Assembly (NCBI RefSeq): GCF_945906275.1
Contig: NZ_CAMDRA010000005.1
Span: forward strand, 1-44,069
DNA length: 44,069 bases
Reading direction: 5' to 3'
DNA from: Dongia mobilis
GTDB lineage: Bacteria; Pseudomonadota; Alphaproteobacteria; Dongiales; Dongiaceae
Shown: one piece after another, positions 4,991 to 44,069 of the stretch
Position numbering within the stretch: the stretch's first letter is position 1
How the letters are laid out: each line of letters begins with the position of its first letter
Position numbers and translations under genes: made by a program
The notes under the pieces: model-generated
What the model saw: the letters and a program-made list of their open reading frames with translations, nothing else
What the model was told of the DNA's origin: nothing
The model's database searches: none

Positions 4991-6271
4991 ATGTTCGATC
5001 TCGTCATCCGCCACGCGACCCTGCCCGATGGACGCACGGGTATCGATATCGGCATCAGCGGCGAGAAGATCGTCGCCGTCGAGCCAGGCCTGCCCGAAGC
5101 CGGCGAAGCCACCATCCAGGCGCGCGGCCTGCTGGTGAGCCCGCCCTTCGTCGATGCGCATTTCCACATGGACGCGACCTTGAGCCTGGGGCTGCCGCGA
5201 CTCAACCGGTCGGGGACGCTGCTCGAAGGCATCCAGCTCTGGAGCGAGCTGAAGCCGCACCTGACCCAGGAAGCGATCATGGAGCGGGCACTCCGCTACT
5301 GCGACTGGGCGGTGGCGCGCGGGCTGCTCGCCATCCGCTCCCATGTCGATATCTGCGACCCGCGCTTGCTGGCGGTGGATGCGCTCCTCGAGGTGAAGAA
5401 GCGCGTGAAACCCTATCTCGATCTGCAACTGGTGGCCTTTCCGCAGGATGGATTCCTGCGCAGCGAAGGTGCCGTCAAGTTGCTGAAGAAGTCGCTCGAT
5501 CGTGGTGTCGATGTGGTGGGTGGCATTCCGCATTTCGAACGCACGATGGCGGATGGCGCGACCTCCGTGCGCATGCTGTGTGAGCTTGCCGCCGAGCGCG
5601 GCCTGCTCGTCGACATGCATTGCGACGAGACCGACGATCCGATGTCGCGCCATATCGAGACGCTGGCTGCGGAGACGCATCGGCTGGGGATGCAGGGCCG
5701 CGTCACCGGCTCCCATCTCACCTCGATGCATTCAATGGACAATTATTATGTCAGCAAGCTCATTCCGCTGATCGCTGAAAGCGGTGTGGCCGCCATCGCC
5801 AATCCGCTCATCAACATCACGATCCAGGGACGCCACGATACCTATCCGAAGCGCCGCGGCATGACACGGGTCCCGGAACTGATGGCGGCTGGGATTCCCG
5901 TCGCCTTCGGCCATGACTGCGTGATGGATCCTTGGTATTCGATGGGCTCGGGCGACATGCTGGACGTCGCCACCATGGCGCTCCATGTCGGGCAGATGAC
6001 AGGCGTGGAGGCGATGCGGACCTGCTTCCAGTCGGTAACCGAGACGCCGGCCAGGATCCTGCATCTCGATGGCTATGGCATCGCACCCGGCTGTTTTGCC
6101 GATCTGGTGGTGCTTGATGCCGCCGACCCGGTCGAGGCTATCCGCCTCAAAGCGGCACGGCTCAAGGTCTTGCGCCGGGGCAAGGTCGTGGCGGAGGGGC
6201 CGGGCGGCGCCATGGCGCTTCACCTTCCAGGCCGGCCGCAGGACGTGACCTTCCATCACCGCTCAGACTAG
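4991..6271 (+). CDS. Amidohydrolase, cytosine-deaminase (CodA)-like
   Basis: Cytosolic metal-dependent amidohydrolase of 426 residues. The metal-binding signatures match the CodA branch: HFHMD after a VDA strand (HxH), MHCDETDDP (E. coli CodA has HCDE) and GHDCVMDPWYSMGSGDML (CodA: GHDDVFDPWY). CodA removes the amino group from cytosine; relatives act on isoguanine, creatinine or other aminated rings, so the substrate is inferred. AAGGGGGAAAGG precedes the start. Placement directly behind a nucleoside importer suggests that the imported base is deaminated on entry. It could also be an N-isopropylammelide-type or related deaminase. Confidence 0.85.
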   Translation: MFDLVIRHATLPDGRTGIDIGISGEKIVAVEPGLPEAGEATIQARGLLVSPPFVDAHFHMDATLSLGLPRLNRSGTLLEGIQLWSELKPHLTQEAIMERALRYCDWAVARGLLAIRSHVDICDPRLLAVDALLEVKKRVKPYLDLQLVAFPQDGFLRSEGAVKLLKKSLDRGVDVVGGIPHFERTMADGATSVRMLCELAAERGLLVDMHCDETDDPMSRHIETLAAETHRLGMQGRVTGSHLTSMHSMDNYYVSKLIPLIAESGVAAIANPLINITIQGRHDTYPKRRGMTRVPELMAAGIPVAFGHDCVMDPWYSMGSGDMLDVATMALHVGQMTGVEAMRTCFQSVTETPARILHLDGYGIAPGCFADLVVLDAADPVEAIRLKAARLKVLRRGKVVAEGPGGAMALHLPGRPQDVTFHHRSD

Positions 6272-31297: not shown

Positions 31298-31918
31298 TCA
31301 GCCGCGCTGGGCGAGGTCGGCCGCGAACTGGGCGAAGATCTCATTGAGGCCGGCATTGAGTGCATGAACCGCATCGTCGATGTTGGGGCCGCTCGCATCC
31401 TTGGTCACCTCATAGATGCCAGTGGCGACGATATCGTCGGTTTCCTTGTCGATGAGCGAGAGTTCGAGGGCGATGACACCGCCATTCCTGGCGCCGGACA
31501 GCTGTTCGAGGCGCTTGATGCGGCCTTCGACGCGGTACTGGGCGTTGACCCTGAGTTCGCTGGGGACGACCTGGTCGGCGAGCTTCGCGGCGCCAAGGAA
31601 GGCCACCAGCTGGTCGCGCAGCATGGCGGGCGGCGGGTCGGTCCAATAAGCGTAATTGCGCTGCTCGAGCTTCATGCCGTTATCCTGGGTGAACAGCAAC
31701 GGCCGTTCACCCATGACACCTTCGGCCTGGAAGGGCGGCACTTCGACGGTGCCAGACAGCGGATTGCCGACCGGTGCCGGATCAGCGCTGCTGATCAGGC
31801 GGAAATATTGCTCCTTGGGAACCGGCGGTGCCGAACCGAAACAGCCGGCAAGGCCGAGGAGCAGGACCGAACTCAGCCCGGCCAGGAGGGCGCGGCGCAG
31901 GGGGAAAATCATCGTCAT
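31298..31918 (-). CDS. ABC-type transport auxiliary lipoprotein of the Mla/MCE system
   Basis: 206 residues. A lipoprotein signal peptide ends in the lipobox LAGC (Cys 26), so the protein is anchored in a membrane facing the periplasm. The rest (EQYFRLISS, VEVPPFQAEGVMGERPLLF, WTDPPPAMLRDQLV) matches the ABC_trans_aux/PqiC-like family that often ends MCE operons. It replaces the soluble MlaC carrier of E. coli in this layout. The start overlaps the MlaD stop by four bases. Confidence 0.88.
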   Translation of the reverse strand: MTMIFPLRRALLAGLSSVLLLGLAGCFGSAPPVPKEQYFRLISSADPAPVGNPLSGTVEVPPFQAEGVMGERPLLFTQDNGMKLEQRNYAYWTDPPPAMLRDQLVAFLGAAKLADQVVPSELRVNAQYRVEGRIKRLEQLSGARNGGVIALELSLIDKETDDIVATGIYEVTKDASGPNIDDAVHALNAGLNEIFAQFAADLAQRG

Positions 31919-32937
31919 TGTGCACCATCCCCGCTGTTGGGGCTGAGGCCCTTGTCGGTTTCCGGATTGCTGCCGGACAGCAGCAGGCCGGGATGCTGGC
32001 GGATGAGGCGGCTGAACTCGTTCATGTTGCGGGTCGTTCCGTCCAGATTGTGGGTGATGGAGTCGATATTCTGCGCCACGGCACGCAACGTATATTCCAG
32101 ATCGGCGATCGATTTGTCGACGCTCTTGCGATTGTCGGCCACCAGGGCGCTGATCTGGTCGGCCACCTTGGTGATCTGGCCTCCGAGGCTGCGCAGGTCC
32201 TGGCTCGCCACCTCGGCATTGGCGGTGGCGCGCTCGATATTGCCCAGCGAGCTCTCGATGGCACCGAGATTCTTCTCCGACAGGAGCTGATCAACCTTGG
32301 CCATTTCGACATTGAGCTGGCTCGAGAAGGTCTCGACATTGCCGACGATGACCGGTGTCTTGGCGTTCACTTCGCGGGCGATTTCGTTGAGCGAGCCCAT
32401 CAACTCCTTGAGGTTGACCTCGGTCGTGTTGCCGATGCGGTCGATGATGTCGCCGATCTTGGCGACCAGCGGCCGGAGCGAAGATTTGGAGAGATCGCCG
32501 ATTTCGCCCGCGACCTGGGCCATCAGCGAGAACATGTCGGCTGCGGTGCCGCCGGCGATTTCGCCGCCGGGTGTGATCGTGGCGCTGGCGAGGCCACCAT
32601 TCACTTCCAGCGTCTTGCCGGCAAGGAAGCTCGATGCGGCGATGCGGGCGATCGAATCCTGCGGGAACTTCCAGCCTTCCTGGACGGCGATCTGCAGGCG
32701 GAAGCGGTACTTCCCGTCGCTGTTTTCCGGTGTGATCTTTTCGACCTGGCCGATCGGGAAGCCCGCGAAGCGGACGACGGTGCCGTATTTGACGTCGGTC
32801 ACGTCATCGAGCACGACGAAATAGGTGTCGGTCGGCCCCGTGCGGCCAGACAGCATGGAGAGCGCCACCACCAGGGCCGCGATCATGGCGGCGACGAAGA
32901 TGCCCACCGCCGTGTAATTGAGAAAGTGATTCCGCAT
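31915..32937 (-). CDS. mlaD: MlaD-like MCE-domain substrate-binding protein
   Basis: 340 residues: a single N-terminal membrane helix (about residues 8-28), then the MCE domain (DTYFVVLDDVTDVKYGTVVRFAGFPIGQVEKI) and a long helical, coiled-coil C-terminus ending RLIRQHPGLLLSGS. MCE proteins form hexameric rings that bind phospholipid in the periplasm. The long helical tail suggests a needle or tunnel, longer than E. coli MlaD. It is 24 bases after the ATPase gene and overlaps the lipoprotein gene. Confidence 0.9.
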   Translation of the reverse strand: MRNHFLNYTAVGIFVAAMIAALVVALSMLSGRTGPTDTYFVVLDDVTDVKYGTVVRFAGFPIGQVEKITPENSDGKYRFRLQIAVQEGWKFPQDSIARIAASSFLAGKTLEVNGGLASATITPGGEIAGGTAADMFSLMAQVAGEIGDLSKSSLRPLVAKIGDIIDRIGNTTEVNLKELMGSLNEIAREVNAKTPVIVGNVETFSSQLNVEMAKVDQLLSEKNLGAIESSLGNIERATANAEVASQDLRSLGGQITKVADQISALVADNRKSVDKSIADLEYTLRAVAQNIDSITHNLDGTTRNMNEFSRLIRQHPGLLLSGSNPETDKGLSPNSGDGAQ

Positions 32938-32961
32938 CGGTCTTCAATCTCCCGGATCGGT

Positions 32962-33819
32962 TCAATCGCCAGCTAGGCGGCGCAAATATTCGGTTGGGTC
33001 AATCTCGGCCTGTTCGGACCGGCGATGCAGCAGGTTCTGCACCCGTTCATTGGCCGAGTTGCGGACCGCATCGACGCGATCCGAAATGAGGATCTGGCCC
33101 TTGTCTAGGATCGTGATCCGATCGGCGATCTTGTAGGCGCTTTCGACATCATGGCTGACCACGACCACGGAGATGTCCATGGCGTCGCGCAGCTTCAGGA
33201 TGAGATCGTCAAGCGCCGAGGACACGACAGGATCGAGCCCCGATGACGGTTCATCGAGGAAGATGAGCTTGGGGTCCATGACAATGGCGCGCGCGATCGA
33301 AGCACGCTTCATCATGCCGCCGGAAAGATCGGAGGGCATCAGATGACCGAAGCCCGAGAGGTTGCACACCTCCAGCTTCATGTTGGCCATGATGTCCATG
33401 GTGCGTTCCTCAAGATCTGTGAGCTCGCGCAGCGGCAGCTTCACGTTTTCGGAAACGCTCATCGAGGAAAAGAGGGCGCCGAACTGGAAGGCGACGCCGA
33501 TGCGCCGCTTGAGGTCCAGCAACTGCATGCGCGATAGGGCACCCATATCCTTGCCCAGCAGCTTGATCTTGCCTGGGAGCGGCGGCATCAGGCCGACAAG
33601 GTGTCGCAGCAAGGTGGTCTTGCCGGAGCCGGAGCCACCCATGATCACCATGATCTCGCCTTCGCGGACATCGAGATTGATGTCGAACAGCACCTGGCGC
33701 GGACCGAAGGACCAGTCGAGATGATCGACCTCGATCACCTTGCGGCGCGCGGCGATGTCTTCGGCGCTGGGGCGGTTGGCCTGGTTGACGGCTTCGGCGG
33801 TGAGGGTCTGGTTCGTCAT
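32962..33819 (-). CDS. mlaF: MlaF-like ABC ATPase for lipid transport
   Basis: 285 residues. Walker A GGSGSGKTTLLRH, signature LSGGMMKRASIARAI and Walker B LIFLDEPSSGLDP; the FGALFSSMSVSENV Q-loop region and long C-terminal tail (RRSEQAEIDPTEYLRRLAGD) match MlaF. In E. coli the STAS protein MlaB binds MlaF and is needed for its activity; a STAS gene is two genes upstream here. It starts three bases after the permease gene. Confidence 0.94.
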   Translation of the reverse strand: MTNQTLTAEAVNQANRPSAEDIAARRKVIEVDHLDWSFGPRQVLFDINLDVREGEIMVIMGGSGSGKTTLLRHLVGLMPPLPGKIKLLGKDMGALSRMQLLDLKRRIGVAFQFGALFSSMSVSENVKLPLRELTDLEERTMDIMANMKLEVCNLSGFGHLMPSDLSGGMMKRASIARAIVMDPKLIFLDEPSSGLDPVVSSALDDLILKLRDAMDISVVVVSHDVESAYKIADRITILDKGQILISDRVDAVRNSANERVQNLLHRRSEQAEIDPTEYLRRLAGD

Positions 33820-33822
33820 GGC

Positions 33823-34620
33823 TTACTGCGTCGTCATGTAGGCGAAGATCATGTCCGCGACGACAATGAGCGTGATCGAGATCACGACCGAGCGGGTCGT
33901 CACCTTGCCGACACCTTCTGCGCCACCCTGCACCATCGAGCCATTGATCACGCCGACGAGGGCGATGATGATGCCGAACAAAGTCGCCTTGCCGAGGCCG
34001 TGCCAGACATCGCCGGTCTTCAAGACTTCGATCGTGTCGTTGAGATAGGCGCCGAAGGATTGGTTGAGTTCGGCCGAGACATAGAGGCCGGCGGCCAGGA
34101 TCGAGACCAGATTGGCCCACATGGCCAGGCACGGCATCATCAGCACCAGGGCGATGAGGACCGGCGACACCAGGAAGCGGACCGGGTTGATGCCCATCAC
34201 CTGCAGGGCATCCACCTCCTGGTTGATGCTCATGGTGGCGAGCTTTGCCGCAATGGCGGAGCCGGAACGGCCGGCAATGAGAATGCCCATGATCATCGGG
34301 CTGAACTCGCGCACCACGGAAAGAGCGATGCCGATATAGGCGTAATGCTCTGCGCCGAACAGGCCGAGGCTGTAGAGGCTCTGGATGGCCAGCATCAGGC
34401 CGATGGTCGCAGCGAGGAGTGTCGCGATCGGAAGTGCTGCGACACCGAACTGCATCATGGCGGCGAAGGTTGCCGTGACGCGCACGGGCTGACGGTAACG
34501 CCAGCCTGCGAGAGTCCAATAGATCGCCTCGAAGAAGATGGCGGCAGCATAGCCCATCTCGTCCAGACCAGCGACGGTGCGCCTTCCGATCGTCTCGAAG
34601 ATTTTTGCTGGATTGGCCAT
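33823..34620 (-). CDS. mlaE: MlaE-like ABC permease
   Basis: 265 residues of the MlaE/DUF140 family. The conserved cytoplasmic loop RSGSAIAAKLATMSINQEVDALQVMGINP is complete, flanked by about five to six hydrophobic segments. It forms the membrane dimer that moves phospholipid between MlaD and the inner membrane. It starts 27 bases after the STAS gene. Confidence 0.94.
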   Translation of the reverse strand: MANPAKIFETIGRRTVAGLDEMGYAAAIFFEAIYWTLAGWRYRQPVRVTATFAAMMQFGVAALPIATLLAATIGLMLAIQSLYSLGLFGAEHYAYIGIALSVVREFSPMIMGILIAGRSGSAIAAKLATMSINQEVDALQVMGINPVRFLVSPVLIALVLMMPCLAMWANLVSILAAGLYVSAELNQSFGAYLNDTIEVLKTGDVWHGLGKATLFGIIIALVGVINGSMVQGGAEGVGKVTTRSVVISITLIVVADMIFAYMTTQ

Positions 34621-34647
34621 CAGGAACAGTTCCGCCTCATGCTGACC

Positions 34648-34983
34648 TTAGGGCCTCGCCGCGAGGGCTGTGGCGACATCGGCGTGGATCGCAAACACCT
34701 TGTCGAGGCGCGCCAGTTCCAGCACGCGCAGGGCGCGCGGGCTCACCGAGACCAGGGACAGTTCGTTCTTCTGCTTGCGCGCCACCTGCAGGCCTTCGAC
34801 CAGGCTGGCAATGCCGGACGAATCGATATAGCTGACCGCGGACAGGTCGATCAGCAGGTCTTTCTTCTGCTTGAGGTTGGCGAGGAGGGCCTTCCGGACC
34901 TCGCCGGCATTTTCGAGGTCGATATCGCCCTCGAGAGCGATCACGATCCTGCCCTGTTCTTCCTTGATGTTGGCCACCGACAT
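34648..34983 (-). CDS. STAS-domain protein (anti-sigma-factor-antagonist / MlaB-like)
   Basis: 111 residues, a single STAS domain. LLIDLSAVSYIDSSGIASLVEGL carries the Ser 55-Ser 56-Gly site at the position phosphorylated in SpoIIAA/RsbV. The protein could act as a regulator in a partner switch or as the MlaB subunit of the transporter; its place between a PP2C/kinase gene and mlaE allows both. It starts three bases after the upstream gene's stop. MlaB and SpoIIAA share this fold, so sequence alone does not separate the roles. Confidence 0.88.
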   Translation of the reverse strand: MSVANIKEEQGRIVIALEGDIDLENAGEVRKALLANLKQKKDLLIDLSAVSYIDSSGIASLVEGLQVARKQKNELSLVSVSPRALRVLELARLDKVFAIHADVATALAARP

Positions 34984-34986
34984 CCC

Positions 34987-36771
34987 CTAATTCCCACCCT
35001 TGCTATCCGCCCCACCTGCCGCGGCAACAGCCGTGGCTTCGGCGGATTCCGTCGCGTTCTTGCGCCGTTTGACAAGCTCCAGCAGGTTCCCCTCACCGTC
35101 CGGCAAGGGGATGAAGCTGGCATCGTCCATGATGGCCCGGATGAAATGCGTCCCCAATCCACCGGGTCTGACCTCGTCTAGCGGTCTTGGTTCTATCTTA
35201 CCGGCATCCACGCGGGGAGCAAAATCCCGCAACCGGAGCATGATTCCGTCCGGCAGGCGGTGCACCGCCAGTGTGATTTCGCCCTTCACCTGGCCGCCAT
35301 AGGCATGGATCATGATGTTTTCGATGGCTTCGCCGGCCGCCAGGACCAGATCCTGGATCTCGTCCTCGCCGAACTGGCAGGCCTTGGCGGCGGCTTCCAG
35401 GGCTGGGCGCATCATCTTGAGGCGGCTGGGGTCAGCGGGGAAGGAGAGGCCGAACAGGAAGTCGGCCTCGGCCGGGGCCGCCACCGCCGGAACCCGCTCC
35501 CGCTGCCAGGCCTTGCCGGCAGCCCGGTCATCGATGGCGAGCAAGGTGAGGTCGTCCTTCGCCTGCCAGCCACCCTGGTCGAGTTCCGCCAGCACCATTT
35601 CGAGGCGCTGTCGCAGGGGGCCGTCATGGGCGTATTCCAGCAGCTGGTTGAGGCCGTCGACCCCCAGTTCCTCGTCGCCATAGCGGAACTCGGTGAGGCC
35701 GTCGGAGAAGGCCACGAACAGGCCACCCTTGAGGTCGATCTCGTGATCGATGAAATGCATGTCGCGCAGGATGCCGAGCGGCGGGGCGTCCGGTGCCACG
35801 GTCTCGTAGAGATGATCGGGAAACTTGATGAGCGGCGGCAGGTGCCCGGCATTGGCATAGCGCAGCAGGCCGGTTGCCGGTTCATATAGCCCAGCCACCA
35901 TGGTGACGAACATGCCACGGCTGGTCGTTTCGCAGATCTCGCGGTTGAGGATCGAGAGCAGGCGTGCCGGGTCGCGGATGGTCTTGCCGAGGCAGCGAAA
36001 GAGGCTGGCGGTCTTGGCCATCAGCAAGGCCGCATTCATGCCCTTGCCGGACACATCGCCCAGCGCAAAGGCGATCGTTCCGTCGGGCAGTTCGAAATAA
36101 TCATAGAAATCGCCCGAAACCTCGCGGATCGGGCGATTGATGCCGCAGATCGGCAGATCGTCATCCTCGGCCGGCAGGAGGCTGCGCTGGATTTCTGATG
36201 CCAGTTCCAGTTCGCGCTTGATGCGCTCCTGTTCCAGCAACTGGTCGGCGAGCCGTGCATTGGAAATGGCCAGCGCCGCGGCGTTGGCCATCACCTGCAG
36301 CATGTTGGCGTCCTTGCCGTCGACGCCGTCGAAAGGATGGCCGGACCGCTTGTTGAGAACCTGGACCGCGCCGATCAGCTTGTCGCCGACGCGCATCGGC
36401 GCGCACAGGATCGACCGCGTGACGAACCCGGTGCGCTCGTCGGCGGCCTTGAAGAAATTCTTGTCCTCATAGGCGTTCTCGACCACCAGCAGGCGGTCCT
36501 CGGCCACGGCACGGCCGACGATGCCCTGGCCCATGGGGACCGCAAGGCCGTCGATCTTGACCGGACCGACGCTGGCCCGGCAGACCAGCATGGCGCCGGT
36601 ATCGTCGAGCAGGAACAGCGACCCCGCCTCTGTTTCCAGCAACTGGATGATGCTGGCGAGTGCCTGCCCGACCGTGGCGTCGACATTGAGTGAGGCAGCA
36701 AAGGAACGAGCCAGGGTGGCGGCGAAATTGAGGGCACCGGAATCGCCGGAATTGGTCGTCGTGATTGTCAT
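34987..36771 (-). CDS. GAF - SpoIIE (PP2C) phosphatase - HATPase fusion regulator
   Basis: 594 residues from the ATG at 36771. In order: a GAF sensor domain (about 20-170: MLVCRASVGPVKIDGLAVPMGQGIVGRAVAE); a linker helix ending EIQRSLLPAE; a SpoIIE/RsbU PP2C phosphatase (about 220-415: SGDFYDYF, LGDVSGKGMNAALLMAK, FSDGLTEF, with metal-binding Asp residues); and an RsbW/SpoIIAB-type HATPase (about 455-585: N-box GEAIENIMIHAYGG, G2-like PGGLGTHFIRAIMD). It thus unites the phosphatase and the kinase for a STAS protein, which is encoded next. No membrane segment is seen. An upstream in-frame extension to 36897 looks non-coding. Confidence 0.9.
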   Translation of the reverse strand: MTITTTNSGDSGALNFAATLARSFAASLNVDATVGQALASIIQLLETEAGSLFLLDDTGAMLVCRASVGPVKIDGLAVPMGQGIVGRAVAEDRLLVVENAYEDKNFFKAADERTGFVTRSILCAPMRVGDKLIGAVQVLNKRSGHPFDGVDGKDANMLQVMANAAALAISNARLADQLLEQERIKRELELASEIQRSLLPAEDDDLPICGINRPIREVSGDFYDYFELPDGTIAFALGDVSGKGMNAALLMAKTASLFRCLGKTIRDPARLLSILNREICETTSRGMFVTMVAGLYEPATGLLRYANAGHLPPLIKFPDHLYETVAPDAPPLGILRDMHFIDHEIDLKGGLFVAFSDGLTEFRYGDEELGVDGLNQLLEYAHDGPLRQRLEMVLAELDQGGWQAKDDLTLLAIDDRAAGKAWQRERVPAVAAPAEADFLFGLSFPADPSRLKMMRPALEAAAKACQFGEDEIQDLVLAAGEAIENIMIHAYGGQVKGEITLAVHRLPDGIMLRLRDFAPRVDAGKIEPRPLDEVRPGGLGTHFIRAIMDDASFIPLPDGEGNLLELVKRRKNATESAEATAVAAAGGADSKGGN

Positions 36772-37104
36772 CAAAATGCCGCCTGGAACGCCTGTTGGGT
36801 CATCGCACGTGCCTTTGCCTTGCCGGACAGGCTGGAATGTCGCGTGCCGTCGATCTCGTGTGCCGGCACTGTAGCGCGCCGATCTCCGCGGCAGCAACAG
36901 GTCCGCGGGCCCAAAGCCAGGTTACATGCGGTCAAGAGAGCTGGATCACACTCCCTGGATCGACTGCCTCAGTCCGATCGCCACCGGTCATCCCGGGGCA
37001 GGGCAAACGCTTTCCCGGACCGGTCCAAGGCGTGTATGATCAGCAAAACAAGGCGCTACCAAAGGCGCCAGACAAGAAAATCACCATGGGGGGGAAACGG
37101 CGGC
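36772..37104. other. Divergent gap between the GAF-PP2C gene and the response regulator
   Basis: 333 bases that must hold promoters for both the minus-strand Mla operon and the plus-strand regulator. I see no consensus sigma70 pair. The region stays GC-rich, with a short hairpin near 37052-37069 (GGCGC/GCGCC). In-frame ATGs for the regulator occur at 36820 and 37036, but the sequence before 37105 is not protein-like. Confidence 0.5.
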
Positions 37105-37830
37105 ATGGCGGTCAAGGGCCAAGGCCAGGATTTGATCCAGGAAGCGGGAGCGCAGCAGGCCGGCGCCTTGGCCTTTGTCGTGGCGGACGACCACCCGATG
37201 GTGCGCGAGGCCCTGGCGGCAGCGCTCCGGGGCGGCTTCGAGGGCGCCCGCATCGCATTTGCGGGAACGCTCACGGAAACCAGAACGGCGATCGAGGCGG
37301 CACCCGATACCGATCTTCTGGTCCTCGACCTCGACATGCCCGGCATGCTGGGTCTGGCTGGGCTGGCGGCCTTGCGCGCTGCGCATCCGGCCCTGCCGAT
37401 CGCCATCGTCTCGGCCAGCACCAATTCCGCCGCCATGCGGCAGGCCATCGAAATGGAGGCCGCGGGGTTCATTCCCAAGCTGGCGGCGGCGGACAAATTC
37501 CTCGACGCGGTCCGCGCGATTCTGAGCGGCGCCGTCTATCTGCCGGACGAGGCGCGTGACGAGGCGCTGACCTTGCGCGACCGCGACCTAGCGCAGCGGG
37601 CGGCACAGCTGACGCCGCAGCAACACCGCGTTCTGTCACTGCTGGCCGAGGGCATGGCCAACAAGCTCATCGCCTATGAAATGCAGATCAGCGAGCCCAC
37701 CGTAAAGGCGCATGTCACCGAGATCCTGCGCAAACTGGGCGTCACATCACGGACGCAGGCGGTAATCCTGGCGCAGCGGCTGGCGCTGGAGCCGGTCTCG
37801 AAACCGGTACCGATGGGCTCGGAAGACTAG
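37105..37830 (+). CDS. NarL-type response regulator, CrbR/ErdR-like
   Basis: 241 residues. Receiver: VVADDHPMVREAL, the phosphate acceptor in LLVLDLDMPGM, IVSAST, and Lys in GFIPKLAA. DNA-binding: a LuxR/GerE helix-turn-helix, LTPQQHRVLSLLAEGMANKLIAYEMQISEPTVKAHVTEILRKLGV. The HTH form and receiver layout resemble CrbR/ErdR, regulators paired with SSS-domain kinases that switch on acetyl-CoA synthetase; such a kinase is encoded at the right edge. The start at 37105 gives a normal-length receiver; an upstream start at 37036 is possible. The end overlaps ohrR by four bases. Confidence 0.85.
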   Translation: MAVKGQGQDLIQEAGAQQAGALAFVVADDHPMVREALAAALRGGFEGARIAFAGTLTETRTAIEAAPDTDLLVLDLDMPGMLGLAGLAALRAAHPALPIAIVSASTNSAAMRQAIEMEAAGFIPKLAAADKFLDAVRAILSGAVYLPDEARDEALTLRDRDLAQRAAQLTPQQHRVLSLLAEGMANKLIAYEMQISEPTVKAHVTEILRKLGVTSRTQAVILAQRLALEPVSKPVPMGSED

Positions 37831-40187: not shown

Positions 40188-40538
40188 ATGTGGCCGTATA
40201 ACGACGAAGAAAATGGTTGGCTCGGGCAGAACACCGCCTACGGCAAAATTGCGGGCCCAGCCCATTCCCCTCGGGAACAATCCTATCTGCCCGACTATTA
40301 CCTGCCCGAAACCGGGCCGGTGACGCCTGAACTGGTCGCCTTCTATCAGCAGCGGGCGCGGCAACTGCGCCACGCGGCTATCGGCGGCTTCTTGGCGCGC
40401 CTCGCGGCAAGTGCCGCGGCGATGTTACAGCAACTGAGCCAGCTGAGCAGCGGCAACCGCGCCAAGATCGAGGCGGTCATTGCCGACATGCGGCAGCAGG
40501 CGACTACGCCACGGAACGCTGGGACCGCTGGGCGATAA
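40188..40538 (+). CDS. Hypothetical protein, 116 residues
   Basis: Begins MWPYNDEENGWLGQN with a good ribosome site (GGAGG, six bases upstream). The N-terminal half is rich in Tyr and Pro (SYLPDYYLPETGPVTPEL); the C-terminal half is a basic amphipathic helix (AFYQQRARQLRHAAIGGFLARLAASAAAM). The helix recalls short DUF1127-like alphaproteobacterial proteins, but I cannot place it in a family. Its last 35 bases overlap, antisense, the end of the large kinase gene. Confidence 0.65.
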   Translation: MWPYNDEENGWLGQNTAYGKIAGPAHSPREQSYLPDYYLPETGPVTPELVAFYQQRARQLRHAAIGGFLARLAASAAAMLQQLSQLSSGNRAKIEAVIADMRQQATTPRNAGTAGR

Positions 40539-43500
40539 GGGCGCGCAGCTTCGCCGGCTTGACCGGTTTGTGAAGCACGTCGAGGCTCAATGCCTTGGCG
40601 CGCGCCATCACGATCGGGTCGCGATTGGCGGTGATGAGCACGGCCGGCACCGCATCGCCCCAGGCGTCGCGGAGCTTGGCGATCTCGTTGATGCCGTCCG
40701 GCTGTTCGTCGCCCAGATGAAGATCGATCAGCAGCAGATCCGGCGGGCCGGCCCTGCCGGCTGAGGCGAGCAGCGCGAGATCTGCACTGGCCGCGGTGAT
40801 GACATCGCAGCCCCAGCTCTGCAGCAGAACGTCCATGCCCTCGCGCACCTGTTCCTCGTCATCGATACAGATGACGAAGGGTACCCGCGCCAGGGCGCCG
40901 GTGCGGGCATGATCCGGCTGCACATCCTTGAGGCTGACCGGATCGGCCATGGCGAGCGGCAGGTCGATGGTGAAGGCAGCGCCCTTGCCGGGCGCCGAAA
41001 TCAGACCACGCGGATGGCCCAGCATGCGGGCGATGCGGTCGACGATGGCAAGGCCTAAGCCCAAACCGCGTTCGCCGCCGACGCTGGCCGGCTTCAAGCG
41101 AATGAACTCCTGATAGATATTGGTCTGCTGGTTGGTGGCGATGCCGGGACCGTTATCGCGCACCTCGATGCGGATGCCGGTCGGGATGCGGCGGCAGCCC
41201 ATGAGGACGCGCGGCAGCCGGTCATTGCCGCGCCCATAGCGAATGGCATTCGACAGATAGTTCTGCAGCACGCGGCGCAGCAGGGCGGGATCGGTCCGTA
41301 CCCAGGCCTTGCTCGGCATCATGCGCAATTCGATGCCGGCGCGCTCCGCCAGCGGCGCAAAGGCATCACCCAGGGACTTCAGCAGCGGCCCCAGCGGAAC
41401 GGCGCGCGGCTCCGGCTTGATGGCGCCGGCATCGAGCTTGGCGATATCGAGCAGCGCATCCAGCAGCGCCTCGACCGAAGAGAGGCCGAGATCGACCTTG
41501 GCCACCAGCTCGTCGGCGACATGGCGCTCCGACAGAGCCGCCACAAACAGGCGCGCGGCATGCAAGGGCTGCAGCAGATCGTGACTGGCGGCAGCGATGA
41601 AACGTGTCTTGTCGATATTGGCTTCCTCGGCGCGGGCGCGGGCCGCCTCCAGTTCGGCGGTGCGGGTCGCCACCCGCCGCTCCAGCCCTTCATTGGCATT
41701 GCGCAGCGCTTCTTCCGCCCGGCGCCGCTCGGTGATGTCGACATAGAGGAGGAAGAAACCGAGCACCTGGCCGCTTTCGTCGAAATGCGGGATATAGGTG
41801 CCGCGGGCCACCTCGATCTTGGCATCGTTGGTGGGGAAATCGATCTCGAACTCCTGCTCCTGGCCCGCCAGCACCGCGTCGATATAGGGCTTCAGCTGCC
41901 GATAGCGTTCCTGCCCCAGCACTTCGCTGACATGGCGGCCTTCGGTGGCACCTTCGCCACCCTTGAGCGAGGCCTGATAGGGCAGGTTGGTGAAGCGATA
42001 ATGCTCGTCGCGGTCGATATAGGCGATCAGCACCGGCACATTGTCGGTGACGATGCGGGTCCGCCTTTCGCTGTCGCGCAGGGCCTCGGCGGCGCGCACC
42101 CGCGCCGTCACATCATTGGCGGTGACGATGACACCGCCGCCGGCGAGCGGGTCGACCCGCAGTTCCGTGACGGACCCGTCGGCCAGCTTGATTTCGCGCA
42201 TCGCACCCTGCTCGGTATCGAGGAGGGCGGCCAGCGATGGAATGTGCGAAGGCAGATTGGCGATGTTGACGCCGATGGCCAGCAAATCGCGCTCCAGCCC
42301 GCTCAGCACCGCGAAGCGGTCGTTCCAGACTTCGAGCTTGCCGGTGGCGTCGAACACGGCAAGGCCAAGGCCCATGTGATCGAGCGTGCGGCGCAGAAGA
42401 TCGGCGTTGTAGCGGATCGCGGCCGTTGCCTCGTCCAGCATTTCACGCATCGAGCCCAGCATCCACAGCCCCTTGCGCCGGGCGGTCGTCACGACGACGC
42501 GGGCGGAGGCGGCGCCGATCGTGCCGGAGAGCAGGCGCTCGGTGAATTCGACCGCGGCGGCCCCGGAGAGCTTCAACTCGCGGAACGCTTCCTCGGCGCG
42601 CTCGCTGCCGATGAAGCGCGCCGCAAGCTCCATCAACTGGTCAAGCTCGTTGCGCGCCGGCGAGACGGGCTTGCTGTGATCGCTCGGACCACCGTCACCG
42701 ACAAAGGCCGCCGCCTGCTGCCGGTCCCGGGCCATGGGTTTTGCCAGGAGCGATCCCACCACCAACAAGGCGATGTTGACCGCCATGGCGACGACGAAGC
42801 CGCGCAGCAGCGGATCGAACCAGACGAGCGGCCCCCAGGGCGGCAGCGTCGAGGCTTGATGGGGCTGGATGGTCGGCCACAGGATTGCCCAGAACCAGAC
42901 GGCAAAGCCACCCAGCAGCCCGGCGATCACGCCATGGCGGTGGGCGCGCCGCCAATAGAGGCCAAGGAGCAGCGGTGGCGCAAAATTGGCAACCGCACAG
43001 AACGAGATGAGGCCGATGGTGACCAGCGGCAGCAGGCCGGCGATGGTGCGGTAATAGGCGTAGGCTGCAAGCAGGATGGCGACCACGGCGAGGCGCCGCA
43101 CCAGGAGGCCGAGCTGGCCGAGATTGGCGCCTTCCTCCTGATTACGCCGCAGCAGCCAGGGCATCACCAACTCGTTGCCGACCATGCCGGAGAGCGCCAT
43201 GCAGGCAACGGCGACCATGCTGGTCGCTGCCGAGAGACCGCCGATGAAGATGAGGGCGGTGAGCCAGTCCGCCCCGGCGGAAAGCGGCAAGGTGAGGACG
43301 TAGAAATCCGGCGCATGGCCAGCATCGAGCCGGGCCAGGCCGGCCATGGCGATCGGCACCACGAAGATATTGATGGCGACGAGATAGAGCGGAAACATCC
43401 AGCGCGCCGTGAGCAGGCTGCGTGGATGAACATGTTCCACGACCGCCACATGGAATTGTCGCGGCAGGCAGAGAAAGGCAAAGCCCGACAGCACGGTGAG

Positions 43501-44069
43501 CGCCAGCCAATTGGCGTTGACCGCGGGATTGAGCATATGGCTGGCCGCGGGAATGCCTTGCGCCACGCGCAACAGATCGGCTGGCCCATCAAATACCGAC
43601 CAGACAATGAAGACGCCGCCAGCCAGCAGGGCGCATAGCTTGACCAGGCTCTCGATGGCGATGGCCAGCATCATGCCGCGATGCTGTTCGCTGGCTTCGA
43701 CATGGCGGACGCCGAACAGGATCGTGAAGGCGGCCATCAGCAAGGTGACGATGAGGGCTGTGTCCTGCCAGATCGGCACATGGAGAGTCGACACCGCCGG
43801 GCTGGCGCCGGCGATTTCGCCGGAGAGCGCCTCGAAGCTGAATGAGACGGCCTGGAGTTGCAGCGCAATATAGGGCATGGCGCCAACAACAGCGATCAAG
43901 GTGGCGATGACCGCCACCGCCCGACTGCGGCCATAGCGGGCGCCGAGGATGTCGGCGATCGAGGTGACGTTCTGCTGCTTCGCAAGTGCAACAATACGCG
44001 CCATCACGGGCCAGGCCAGCACAATCACCAGGGCTGGTCCCACATAGATCAACGCAAAATCGAGACCAT
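40504..44069 (-). CDS. SSS-transporter/STAC/PAS hybrid sensor histidine kinase with receiver, CrbS/MxtR-like (N-terminus cut)
   Basis: At least 1187 residues; the frame is still open at the window edge (the TTG at 44052 is not a natural start). Residues below count from 44052. About 1-450: a sodium/solute symporter (SSS/SLC5) domain with a dozen hydrophobic helices. About 470-550: a STAC domain (LLSGTIGAASARVVV). Then two PAS domains (near 555 and 670), a coiled coil, HisKA with His 824 in AAASHDLLQPLHAARLF, HATPase_c (LSNAIRYG, DNGPGIA, GLGLGLAIVDR) and a C-terminal receiver (CIDDEEQVREG, LLIDLHLG). This is the CrbS/MxtR plan, linked in other bacteria to acetate and acetyl-CoA synthetase control. 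The likely partner regulator is at 37105-37830. Confidence 0.92.
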   Translation of the reverse strand, partial: GLDFALIYVGPALVIVLAWPVMARIVALAKQQNVTSIADILGARYGRSRAVAVIATLIAVVGAMPYIALQLQAVSFSFEALSGEIAGASPAVSTLHVPIWQDTALIVTLLMAAFTILFGVRHVEASEQHRGMMLAIAIESLVKLCALLAGGVFIVWSVFDGPADLLRVAQGIPAASHMLNPAVNANWLALTVLSGFAFLCLPRQFHVAVVEHVHPRSLLTARWMFPLYLVAINIFVVPIAMAGLARLDAGHAPDFYVLTLPLSAGADWLTALIFIGGLSAATSMVAVACMALSGMVGNELVMPWLLRRNQEEGANLGQLGLLVRRLAVVAILLAAYAYYRTIAGLLPLVTIGLISFCAVANFAPPLLLGLYWRRAHRHGVIAGLLGGFAVWFWAILWPTIQPHQASTLPPWGPLVWFDPLLRGFVVAMAVNIALLVVGSLLAKPMARDRQQAAAFVGDGGPSDHSKPVSPARNELDQLMELAARFIGSERAEEAFRELKLSGAAAVEFTERLLSGTIGAASARVVVTTARRKGLWMLGSMREMLDEATAAIRYNADLLRRTLDHMGLGLAVFDATGKLEVWNDRFAVLSGLERDLLAIGVNIANLPSHIPSLAALLDTEQGAMREIKLADGSVTELRVDPLAGGGVIVTANDVTARVRAAEALRDSERRTRIVTDNVPVLIAYIDRDEHYRFTNLPYQASLKGGEGATEGRHVSEVLGQERYRQLKPYIDAVLAGQEQEFEIDFPTNDAKIEVARGTYIPHFDESGQVLGFFLLYVDITERRRAEEALRNANEGLERRVATRTAELEAARARAEEANIDKTRFIAAASHDLLQPLHAARLFVAALSERHVADELVAKVDLGLSSVEALLDALLDIAKLDAGAIKPEPRAVPLGPLLKSLGDAFAPLAERAGIELRMMPSKAWVRTDPALLRRVLQNYLSNAIRYGRGNDRLPRVLMGCRRIPTGIRIEVRDNGPGIATNQQTNIYQEFIRLKPASVGGERGLGLGLAIVDRIARMLGHPRGLISAPGKGAAFTIDLPLAMADPVSLKDVQPDHARTGALARVPFVICIDDEEQVREGMDVLLQSWGCDVITAASADLALLASAGRAGPPDLLLIDLHLGDEQPDGINEIAKLRDAWGDAVPAVLITANRDPIVMARAKALSLDVLHKPVKPAKLRALIAQRSQRSVA

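Follow-up and report, generated by a model that had tools for sequence, protein, structure and literature searches.

A candidate phospho-switch encoded with an MCE lipid ABC transporter in Dongia mobilis

What does a partner-switching module control when its genes head a lipid transporter operon? The question is raised by a stretch of 44,069 nucleotides of Dongia mobilis DNA (Alphaproteobacteria; assembly GCF_945906275.1, contig NZ_CAMDRA010000005.1, positions 1 to 44,069 of the forward strand), here called the window. At positions 31298–36771 the window carries a minus-strand run of six genes in the order REG-STAS-MlaE-MlaF-MlaD-lipoprotein, where REG is shorthand for a GAF-PP2C-HATPase regulator; the lipoprotein is called LPP below. 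From sequence comparison, we consider it likely that the operon holds a partner-switching module that controls an MCE lipid ABC transporter in place of a sigma factor. That the switch belongs to the transporter is supported because the linkage is conserved, the switch co-occurs with one MlaF type, a module swap has kept the two together, the phosphosite and catalytic residues are retained, and no SigB/F/G member of the genome scores over the cut-off.

The run was first noticed in an original prediction made from the letters of the window. Its six genes, with intergenic gaps of 3, 27, 3 and 24 bases and one overlap of 4 bases, are borne out by the open reading frame coordinates. The prediction placed a SpoIIE-type phosphatase and an RsbW-type kinase together in the first gene, and Pfam indeed finds SpoIIE and HATPase_c_2 there over cut-off; the Ser-Ser-Gly that it saw in STAS is present in the motif YIDSSG, as Ser55 and Ser56. 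The parts are as follows.

34987–36771, minus strand: REG, 594 aa, with GAF (residues 31–169), SpoIIE-type PP2C (229–413) and RsbW-type HATPase (444–568) parts, assigned by Pfam, alignment A3 and PDB matches
36175–36771, minus strand: GAF part of REG; among sequences of solved structure, the closest are the GAF domains of PDE5, PDE2 and an adenylate cyclase
35047–35484, minus strand: HATPase part of REG, RsbW-type serine kinase by Pfam; E/N/H box and GGLG align with RsbW (6m36)
34648–34983, minus strand: STAS, 111 aa, RsbV/SpoIIAA-like, predicted phosphosite Ser55 (YIDSSG)
33823–34620, minus strand: MlaE-type permease, 265 aa, no STAS domain fused at the N-terminus
32962–33819, minus strand: MlaF-type ATPase, 285 aa, LSGGM signature, C-terminal extension ending EYLRRLAGD
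31915–32937, minus strand: MlaD/MCE protein, 340 aa, long C-terminal region
31298–31918, minus strand: lipoprotein of the ABC_trans_aux (PqiC) type, 206 aa

The REG start was set at the ATG at 36771; the open frame extends upstream to a TTG at 36897. In Pfam, REG matches SpoIIE (PF07228) with E 4.3e-40 and 138.1 bits (cut-off 25), HATPase_c_2 (PF13581) with E 1.1e-22 and 80.9 bits (cut-off 27.4), and GAF with E 4e-14. The STAS match has E 1.2e-20. The transporter genes, all over cut-off and in one operon, match the permease family PF02405 (E 1.2e-64, 218.2 bits), ABC_tran (E 9.1e-31, 107.7 bits) and MlaD (PF02470; E 5e-11, 43.1 bits), and the lipoprotein matches ABC_trans_aux (E 1.3e-12, 48.1 bits, cut-off 26).

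Linkage of the regulator, STAS and transporter genes

A REG-only pattern scan of a species-genome collection gave 64 loci, and surveys of the order, phylum and class added more. Loci were scored for a REG of at least 300 bits, a kinase domain at most 3 kb away, STAS at most 2.5 kb away and MlaE at most 5 kb away, limits that were chosen while viewing the data. The genome surveys scored the best few candidates per genome, so that their counts are lower bounds. Five survey loci that duplicated others and four short same-place loci (L142–L145) were removed before counting, and two truncated loci (L046, L166) stand outside the linkage table.

STAS and MlaE genes adjoin REG at 32 of the 43 distinct loci that have a REG of at least 300 bits with a kinase domain. 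It follows that the six-gene arrangement is more than chance. Among 52 weaker PP2C relatives, in contrast, a kinase domain is found in 12, a STAS match in 13 and an adjoining MlaE in none. The original prediction had proposed a survey of genomes for the regulator-STAS-mla order, and these counts find the linkage conserved. The other 11 loci comprise eight that we call Marinicella-type, two with STAS and no mla genes (L116, L157), and one with neither STAS nor MlaE (L044). At L157, the next same-strand gene encodes an ABC ATPase that by eye resembles the heme exporter CcmA. At L044 (5020–9650), a GAF-PP2C gene with a long N-terminal region is followed by an opposite-strand HATPase gene and preceded by an apolipoprotein N-acyltransferase gene.

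Within the window's own order, REG is present in 11 of 17 genomes, all 11 with the six-gene order. Across the Alphaproteobacteria, 19 of 385 genomes have REG, and in 13 of these it is linked. The six unlinked cases are G291 and G509 (STAS, no mla), G419 (truncated contig), and G543, G549 and G704, whose PP2C matches contain no kinase domain (for G704, judged from the match only). Linkage is also seen at loci titled Gammaproteobacteria or Lysobacterales. The system is rare, yet mostly linked where present.

The 17 genomes returned by the phylum survey divide into three with linkage to mla, 12 with a GAF-PP2C protein that has no kinase domain, G083, which has a different PP2C-kinase protein with two STAS, and G291, with STAS and no mla. 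The 12 GAF-PP2C proteins form one family; as they have no kinase domain, they were rejected as REG and counted among the 52 weaker relatives. Three neighbourhoods (L117, L118, L128) were read gene by gene, and L117 has STAS without mla. The loci L118–L128 carry kinase-less GAF-PP2C proteins of one genus of the phylum survey, with no STAS or mla match alongside; an HxlR-type regulator adjoins L118 and, by eye, L128.

The set tolerates rearrangement. Separate GAF-PP2C and HATPase genes take the place of the fused regulator at L035, L048, L116, L160–L163 and L165, and at L167 the STAS, PP2C and HATPase genes are convergent with LPP-MlaD-F-E. The L167 STAS (5466–6197) is 243 aa long, with a long C-terminal extension, and precedes the split PP2C and HATPase genes. 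Two different STAS genes lie between the split regulator and MlaE at L160 (1279–2096) and L161 (6147–7051); the one nearer the regulator reads YLDSSGIETLVEADR.

The Marinicella-type loci separate the switch into its parts. Three of the eight carry the Marinicella name and the others are metagenome bins. In these genomes REG lies apart from mla. A STAS search covered the genomes of five of the eight loci (L039, L040 and L041 stand outside it) and gave a single match per genome at E 1e-6; in all five, that single STAS heads a STAS-MlaE-F-D-LPP operon. In both genomes searched for MlaE, the MlaE of this operon is the only one. No other single observation speaks as strongly as these Marinicella-type operons for STAS belonging to the transporter and for linkage of REG being dispensable. 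A CDP-alcohol phosphatidyltransferase (PssA-like) gene directly precedes REG at seven of the eight loci (L034, L036–L040, L045), a call made by Pfam for one of the seven; the eighth contig begins inside REG. Given the position of REG beside this gene, lipid synthesis may be coordinated with lipid export in these genomes.

A different rearrangement points to the ATPase as the subunit that travels with the switch. At L027 and L028, both titled Gammaproteobacteria, REG-STAS precedes MlaE and a short MlaD, and at L028 MlaA and MlaC then follow by Pfam, the content of an ordinary Mla operon. The L028 MlaE is of the ordinary Mla type (42% identity to E. coli MlaE, 26% to that of the window). The L028 MlaF, encoded on the opposite strand, is of the REG type, its identity being 54% with the MlaF of the window and 35% with that of E. 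coli. In the FastTree trees it falls within the REG-type clade (34 rows, support 0.98; six truncated MlaF loci omitted), and the L028 MlaE within the canonical clade (0.998). The AU test rejects a grouping of the L028 MlaF with canonical MlaF (p 0.0025) and a single clade of all REG-linked MlaE (p 1.8e-6), p values that are optimistic since the groups were defined after the first tree had been viewed. The two other MlaE of the L028 genome have MlaF partners of their own.

The same association is seen genome by genome. Among the 385 Alphaproteobacteria, 19 have REG and 16 a REG-type MlaF; 13 have both, six REG only, three MlaF only and 363 neither. The co-occurrence has a Fisher p of 2.7e-17, uncorrected for kinship, and the 13 genomes represent seven families, with five in one genus.

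A few features of the window flank the operon. A NarL-type response regulator gene (36820–37830, plus strand) lies upstream of REG, divergent from it, and recurs at the Dongia-type loci L021–L024. A minus-strand open frame of 1182 aa (40504–44052) has a weak HATPase match below cut-off and is perhaps a multidomain sensor kinase. A promoter scan of the region found no sigma-70 promoter-like site.

Active sites, phosphosite and the MlaF tail

Both enzymes of REG appear intact. In alignment A3, which has 19 rows including four Marinicella-type REG, the PP2C residues D221, D224, D239, D357, D406 and D407 and the kinase residues E481, N485, H489, D516, G537 and G540 are invariant in all 19. We take the PP2C aspartates to be metal-binding residues and the kinase E/N/H to be active-site residues, as in SpoIIE and SpoIIAB. 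The REG of L042 was left out of A3 for a stop codon; at the same locus, an apparent N-terminal extension of MlaE was dismissed as a frame artefact. Among PDB entries, the kinase part matches RsbW, and further matches are to P. aeruginosa response regulators, Rv1364c and SpoIIE. The predicted REG model has a mean pLDDT of 77.6 with low-confidence parts and was left unused for fold search. Since the GAF part is most like the cyclic-nucleotide GAFs of PDE5, PDE2 and an adenylate cyclase, its ligand is perhaps a cyclic nucleotide, which we offer as a lead only.

The window STAS is RsbV/SpoIIAA-like rather than MlaB-like. It scores as an anti-sigma factor antagonist by TIGR00377 (73.9 bits, cut-off 53.45). 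Its predicted model (pLDDT 90.8) has a short fifth strand region and a C-terminal helix, both of which MlaB lacks (PMC7367683; published work is described here as excerpts of the cited papers present it). In structure the model comes closest to RsbV, as seen in the RsbV-RsbW complex, and to further anti-sigma antagonists. STAS has a gene of its own, and the window MlaE, read in L197, has no N-terminal extension.

The predicted phosphosite is strongly kept. D-S-S is present in all 42 distinct STAS of the family (more than 60 bits), and Y-I-D-S-S-G in all 18 of alignment A1. Ser55 of the window aligns with Thr52 of E. coli MlaB. In E. coli, MlaF depends on MlaB to join MlaE (PMC7367683, PMC5016091); Tyr261, Leu265 and Leu266 of the MlaF C-terminal extension are at the MlaB interface, with MlaB Thr52 near its centre, and MlaB T52E lowers MlaF binding (PMC7367683).

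A counterpart of this handshake is found at the MlaF C-terminus. Of the 31 distinct complete sequences of the REG-linked set, 29 have the ending Y-[LIM]-x-R-L (Y-x3-L). Canonical MlaF (E. coli, L175, L182, L183, L186, L187, L189) ends in Y or F-x2-D-L, and Y-x3-L is absent from the MlaF of STAS-fused operons (L174, L181, L185, L087, L173, L190) and of operons with no nearby STAS match (L086, L180, L172, L169–L171). These tails are short and their alignment uncertain. STAS fusion was assigned at seven loci by an MlaE N-terminal extension of 100–116 aa with D-S or D-T.

A proposed mechanism and the explanations that compete with it

We propose that the RsbV-like STAS protein stands in MlaB's place. 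Unphosphorylated STAS would bind the MlaF helical subdomain and the C-terminal handshake, and MlaFE assembly, ATP hydrolysis and transport would be on. The RsbW-type kinase domain of REG would bind the same face of STAS and phosphorylate Ser55; STAS would leave MlaF, and transport would be off. The helical face of STAS would thus have two partners, the REG kinase domain and MlaF. A GAF signal, perhaps a cyclic nucleotide, would activate PP2C, and STAS would be dephosphorylated and transport restarted. STAS phosphorylation and the binding of STAS to MlaF are inferred here, as are the sign of the switch, the lipid and what the GAF domain senses. The direction, with phosphorylated STAS as the off state, is chosen because of the E. 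coli T52E result and the precedent of HsbR-HsbA and SypE-SypA (PMC6482189, PMC8256260, PMC4517449). As for the suggestion in the original prediction that a phospho-switch gates MlaFE, the association of switch and transporter is supported by linkage, MlaF co-occurrence, the module swap and conserved sites; its canonical Mla transporter and MlaB-like STAS are not.

Several findings weigh against the transporter as the output. RsbV is the closest structural match of the STAS model, and MlaB is only 47th. REG is rare, with 17 of 398 genomes phylum-wide at E 1e-60. Two genomes have REG-STAS and no REG-type MlaF, and the module therefore probably has at least one other use: G291 (L116; 100% complete) has PP2C, HATPase and STAS with no adjacent MlaE and one other MlaE elsewhere, and in G509 (L157; 81% complete) the gene next to REG-STAS encodes another ABC ATPase. 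The STAS proteins of these two genomes probably have a different target. L044 has neither STAS nor MlaE, and L029 has MlaE with no MlaF alongside. The MlaF of L158 and L207 lack Y-x3-L, and that of L167 has H for Y (L207 is outside the 31-sequence set). In E. coli, MlaB T52A retains assembly and abolishes ATPase activity (PMC5016091), and therefore this residue may matter beyond a binding switch. Three genomes (G556, G645, G691) have an MlaF match and no REG.

On closer inspection, the MlaF of G556 and G645 are probably not of the REG type: the MlaE frames are 389 and 402 aa long, and the MlaF group with that of L190, whose MlaE has an N-terminal extension. Both were retained as MlaF-only in the counts above. 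The MlaF of G691 is of the REG type, but its MlaE begins at base 57 of the contig, and the stretch beside it that might hold REG lies outside the contig.

The Dongia genome itself (3.72 Mb, completeness given as 100) has one SpoIIE domain, three MlaE and four STAS matches over cut-off. Two of the STAS matches other than that of the operon were ruled out as free STAS proteins, being SulP transporters (PF00916). The remaining one, on contig 114, is 134–144 aa long, runs to near the contig end, and has a STAS domain only by Pfam; it may be a SulP tail or a stand-alone STAS. If it stands alone, a second substrate for the switch is possible, a further point to be set against the transporter.

Among the competing explanations, the one that survives best, unlikely as we judge it, is an ordinary partner switch, in which REG and STAS would control a sigma factor or other transcription regulator and the transporter would be cotranscribed or a member of the regulon. 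The TIGR00377 score of the STAS protein and its RsbV- and SpoIIAA-like fold count in favour of this explanation, as do relatives such as HsbR-HsbA, which target RpoS and FlgM (PMC6482189), and the two genomes with REG-STAS and no adjacent mla. It sits poorly with the sigma factors of the genome. The original prediction had remarked that the neighbourhood lacks a sigma factor gene; genome-wide, no SigB/F/G-type sigma factor scores over the TIGR02980 cut-off of 234.35, other sigma families having been outside the search. The best match has 132.4 bits in a 663-aa frame, and both of the two weak matches are on other contigs. Nor would an ordinary partner switch lead one to expect that STAS stays with mlaEFD where REG has moved off, that REG-STAS is tracked by the MlaF type and not the MlaE type, or that the linkage recurs in Alphaproteobacteria and in loci titled Gammaproteobacteria or Lysobacterales.

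A little less probable again is a structural role, in which STAS would serve as an MlaB for assembly and REG would set its stability or bind it, with no true phosphorylation switch. This accords with the requirement for MlaB in E. coli and with the retained C-terminal motif of MlaF. It leaves without a purpose the kinase and phosphatase residues that are invariant in all 19 REG and the D-S-S found in every distinct STAS, and at several loci the split PP2C and HATPase genes have remained with STAS.

Linkage through shared ancestry or one-block transfer, with no functional coupling, is compatible with the rare, patchy occurrence of REG and is very improbable, given that the set is kept whether the regulator is fused or split, through the convergence at L167, the doubled STAS of L160 and L161 and the different MlaE type of L027 and L028, and that Marinicella-type genomes have an unlinked REG and a linked STAS.

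We therefore return to the transporter as the probable output. Phosphorylation control of MlaB was proposed in 2016 (PMC5016091) and 2020 (PMC7367683), and the 2020 paper treats the regulation of active MlaB as an open question. Excerpts of these two papers name no kinase or phosphatase for MlaB. We found no open-licence paper that connects a SpoIIE or PP2C regulator with MlaE, MlaF or MlaB; all preprints and the bulk of subscription papers lay outside the search. The new part is thus the dedicated kinase-phosphatase encoded beside the STAS gene; the idea of MlaB phosphorylation is already published. The locus offers a candidate for the missing kinase and phosphatase as a neighbour of the STAS gene. 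Since the set is kept in dozens of genomes with the kinase-phosphatase adjoining STAS, the question of MlaB regulation becomes testable with purified proteins.

If the proposal is true, partner switching is not confined to transcription and can also control a lipid ABC transporter directly. The conserved set suggests that phosphorylation can turn outer-membrane lipid traffic on and off. A wider proposal, to which we give slightly better than an even chance, is that a dedicated phospho-switch, responsive to a ligand, gates a class of lipid ABC transporters. In place of MlaB, an RsbV-type STAS would be an exchangeable regulatory subunit of MlaF, one bifunctional GAF-PP2C-kinase would set its state, lipid flux would be controlled post-translationally through a signal in the cytoplasm, possibly a cyclic nucleotide, and in Marinicella-type genomes lipid synthesis and export would be coordinated.

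Comparison with known systems

The outputs of RsbU-RsbW-RsbV and SpoIIE-SpoIIAB-SpoIIAA of Bacillus and of Rv1364c of Mycobacterium are sigma factors. These systems share PP2C, HATPase kinase and STAS modules with the window operon and differ in that output; the Dongia genome has no SigB/F/G member over the cut-off.

Closer in layout are HsbR-HsbA of Pseudomonas aeruginosa and SypE-SypA of Vibrio fischeri, in which STAS phosphorylation on Ser56 is governed by a single protein that has both PP2C and kinase parts (PMC6482189, PMC4517449). HsbR and SypE are response regulators, HsbR with a receiver domain, whereas REG has a GAF domain instead. The partners reported in the excerpts are FlgM, HsbD and RpoS, none of which is a lipid transporter.

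On the transporter side, the original prediction described a Mla/MCE operon. An MCE lipid ABC transporter it is; the canonical Mla assignment does not hold. The proteins score below all four canonical NCBIfam models (bits against cut-off: MlaB 30.0/90, MlaE 130.5/315, MlaF 201.9/441, MlaD 60/135). By sequence, the transporter is best described as an Mpc-like Mla-Pqi chimera rather than an E. coli Mla, because it has a PqiC-type lipoprotein and a long MlaD (340 aa) and because Pfam finds neither mlaA nor mlaC among the six operon genes, the rest of the genome not having been searched for them.

The window operon shares with E. coli MlaFEDB the MlaE, MlaF and MlaD homologues, a stand-alone STAS, the alignment of Ser55 with MlaB Thr52 and the Y-x3-L end of MlaF. 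It differs in its RsbV-like STAS, encoded directly after a kinase-phosphatase gene, and in having the long MlaD and PqiC-type lipoprotein and no mlaA or mlaC.

Mpc of Brucella abortus has the same E-F-D-lipoprotein order, a long MlaD (331 aa, against 340 in the window) and a PqiC-like lipoprotein (PMC12436622). The fused type of Mpc has a counterpart in the Dongia genome, where the second MlaE (contig 27) lies in an operon and is N-terminally extended and STAS-fused; the third (contig 8) is in an mlaE-mlaF pair with no STAS match. In MpcE the STAS domain is fused at the N-terminus (PMC12436622), whereas the STAS of the window is free and lies beside a regulator. Control by such a regulator is a possible reason why some MCE operons have a free STAS and others a STAS fused to the permease.

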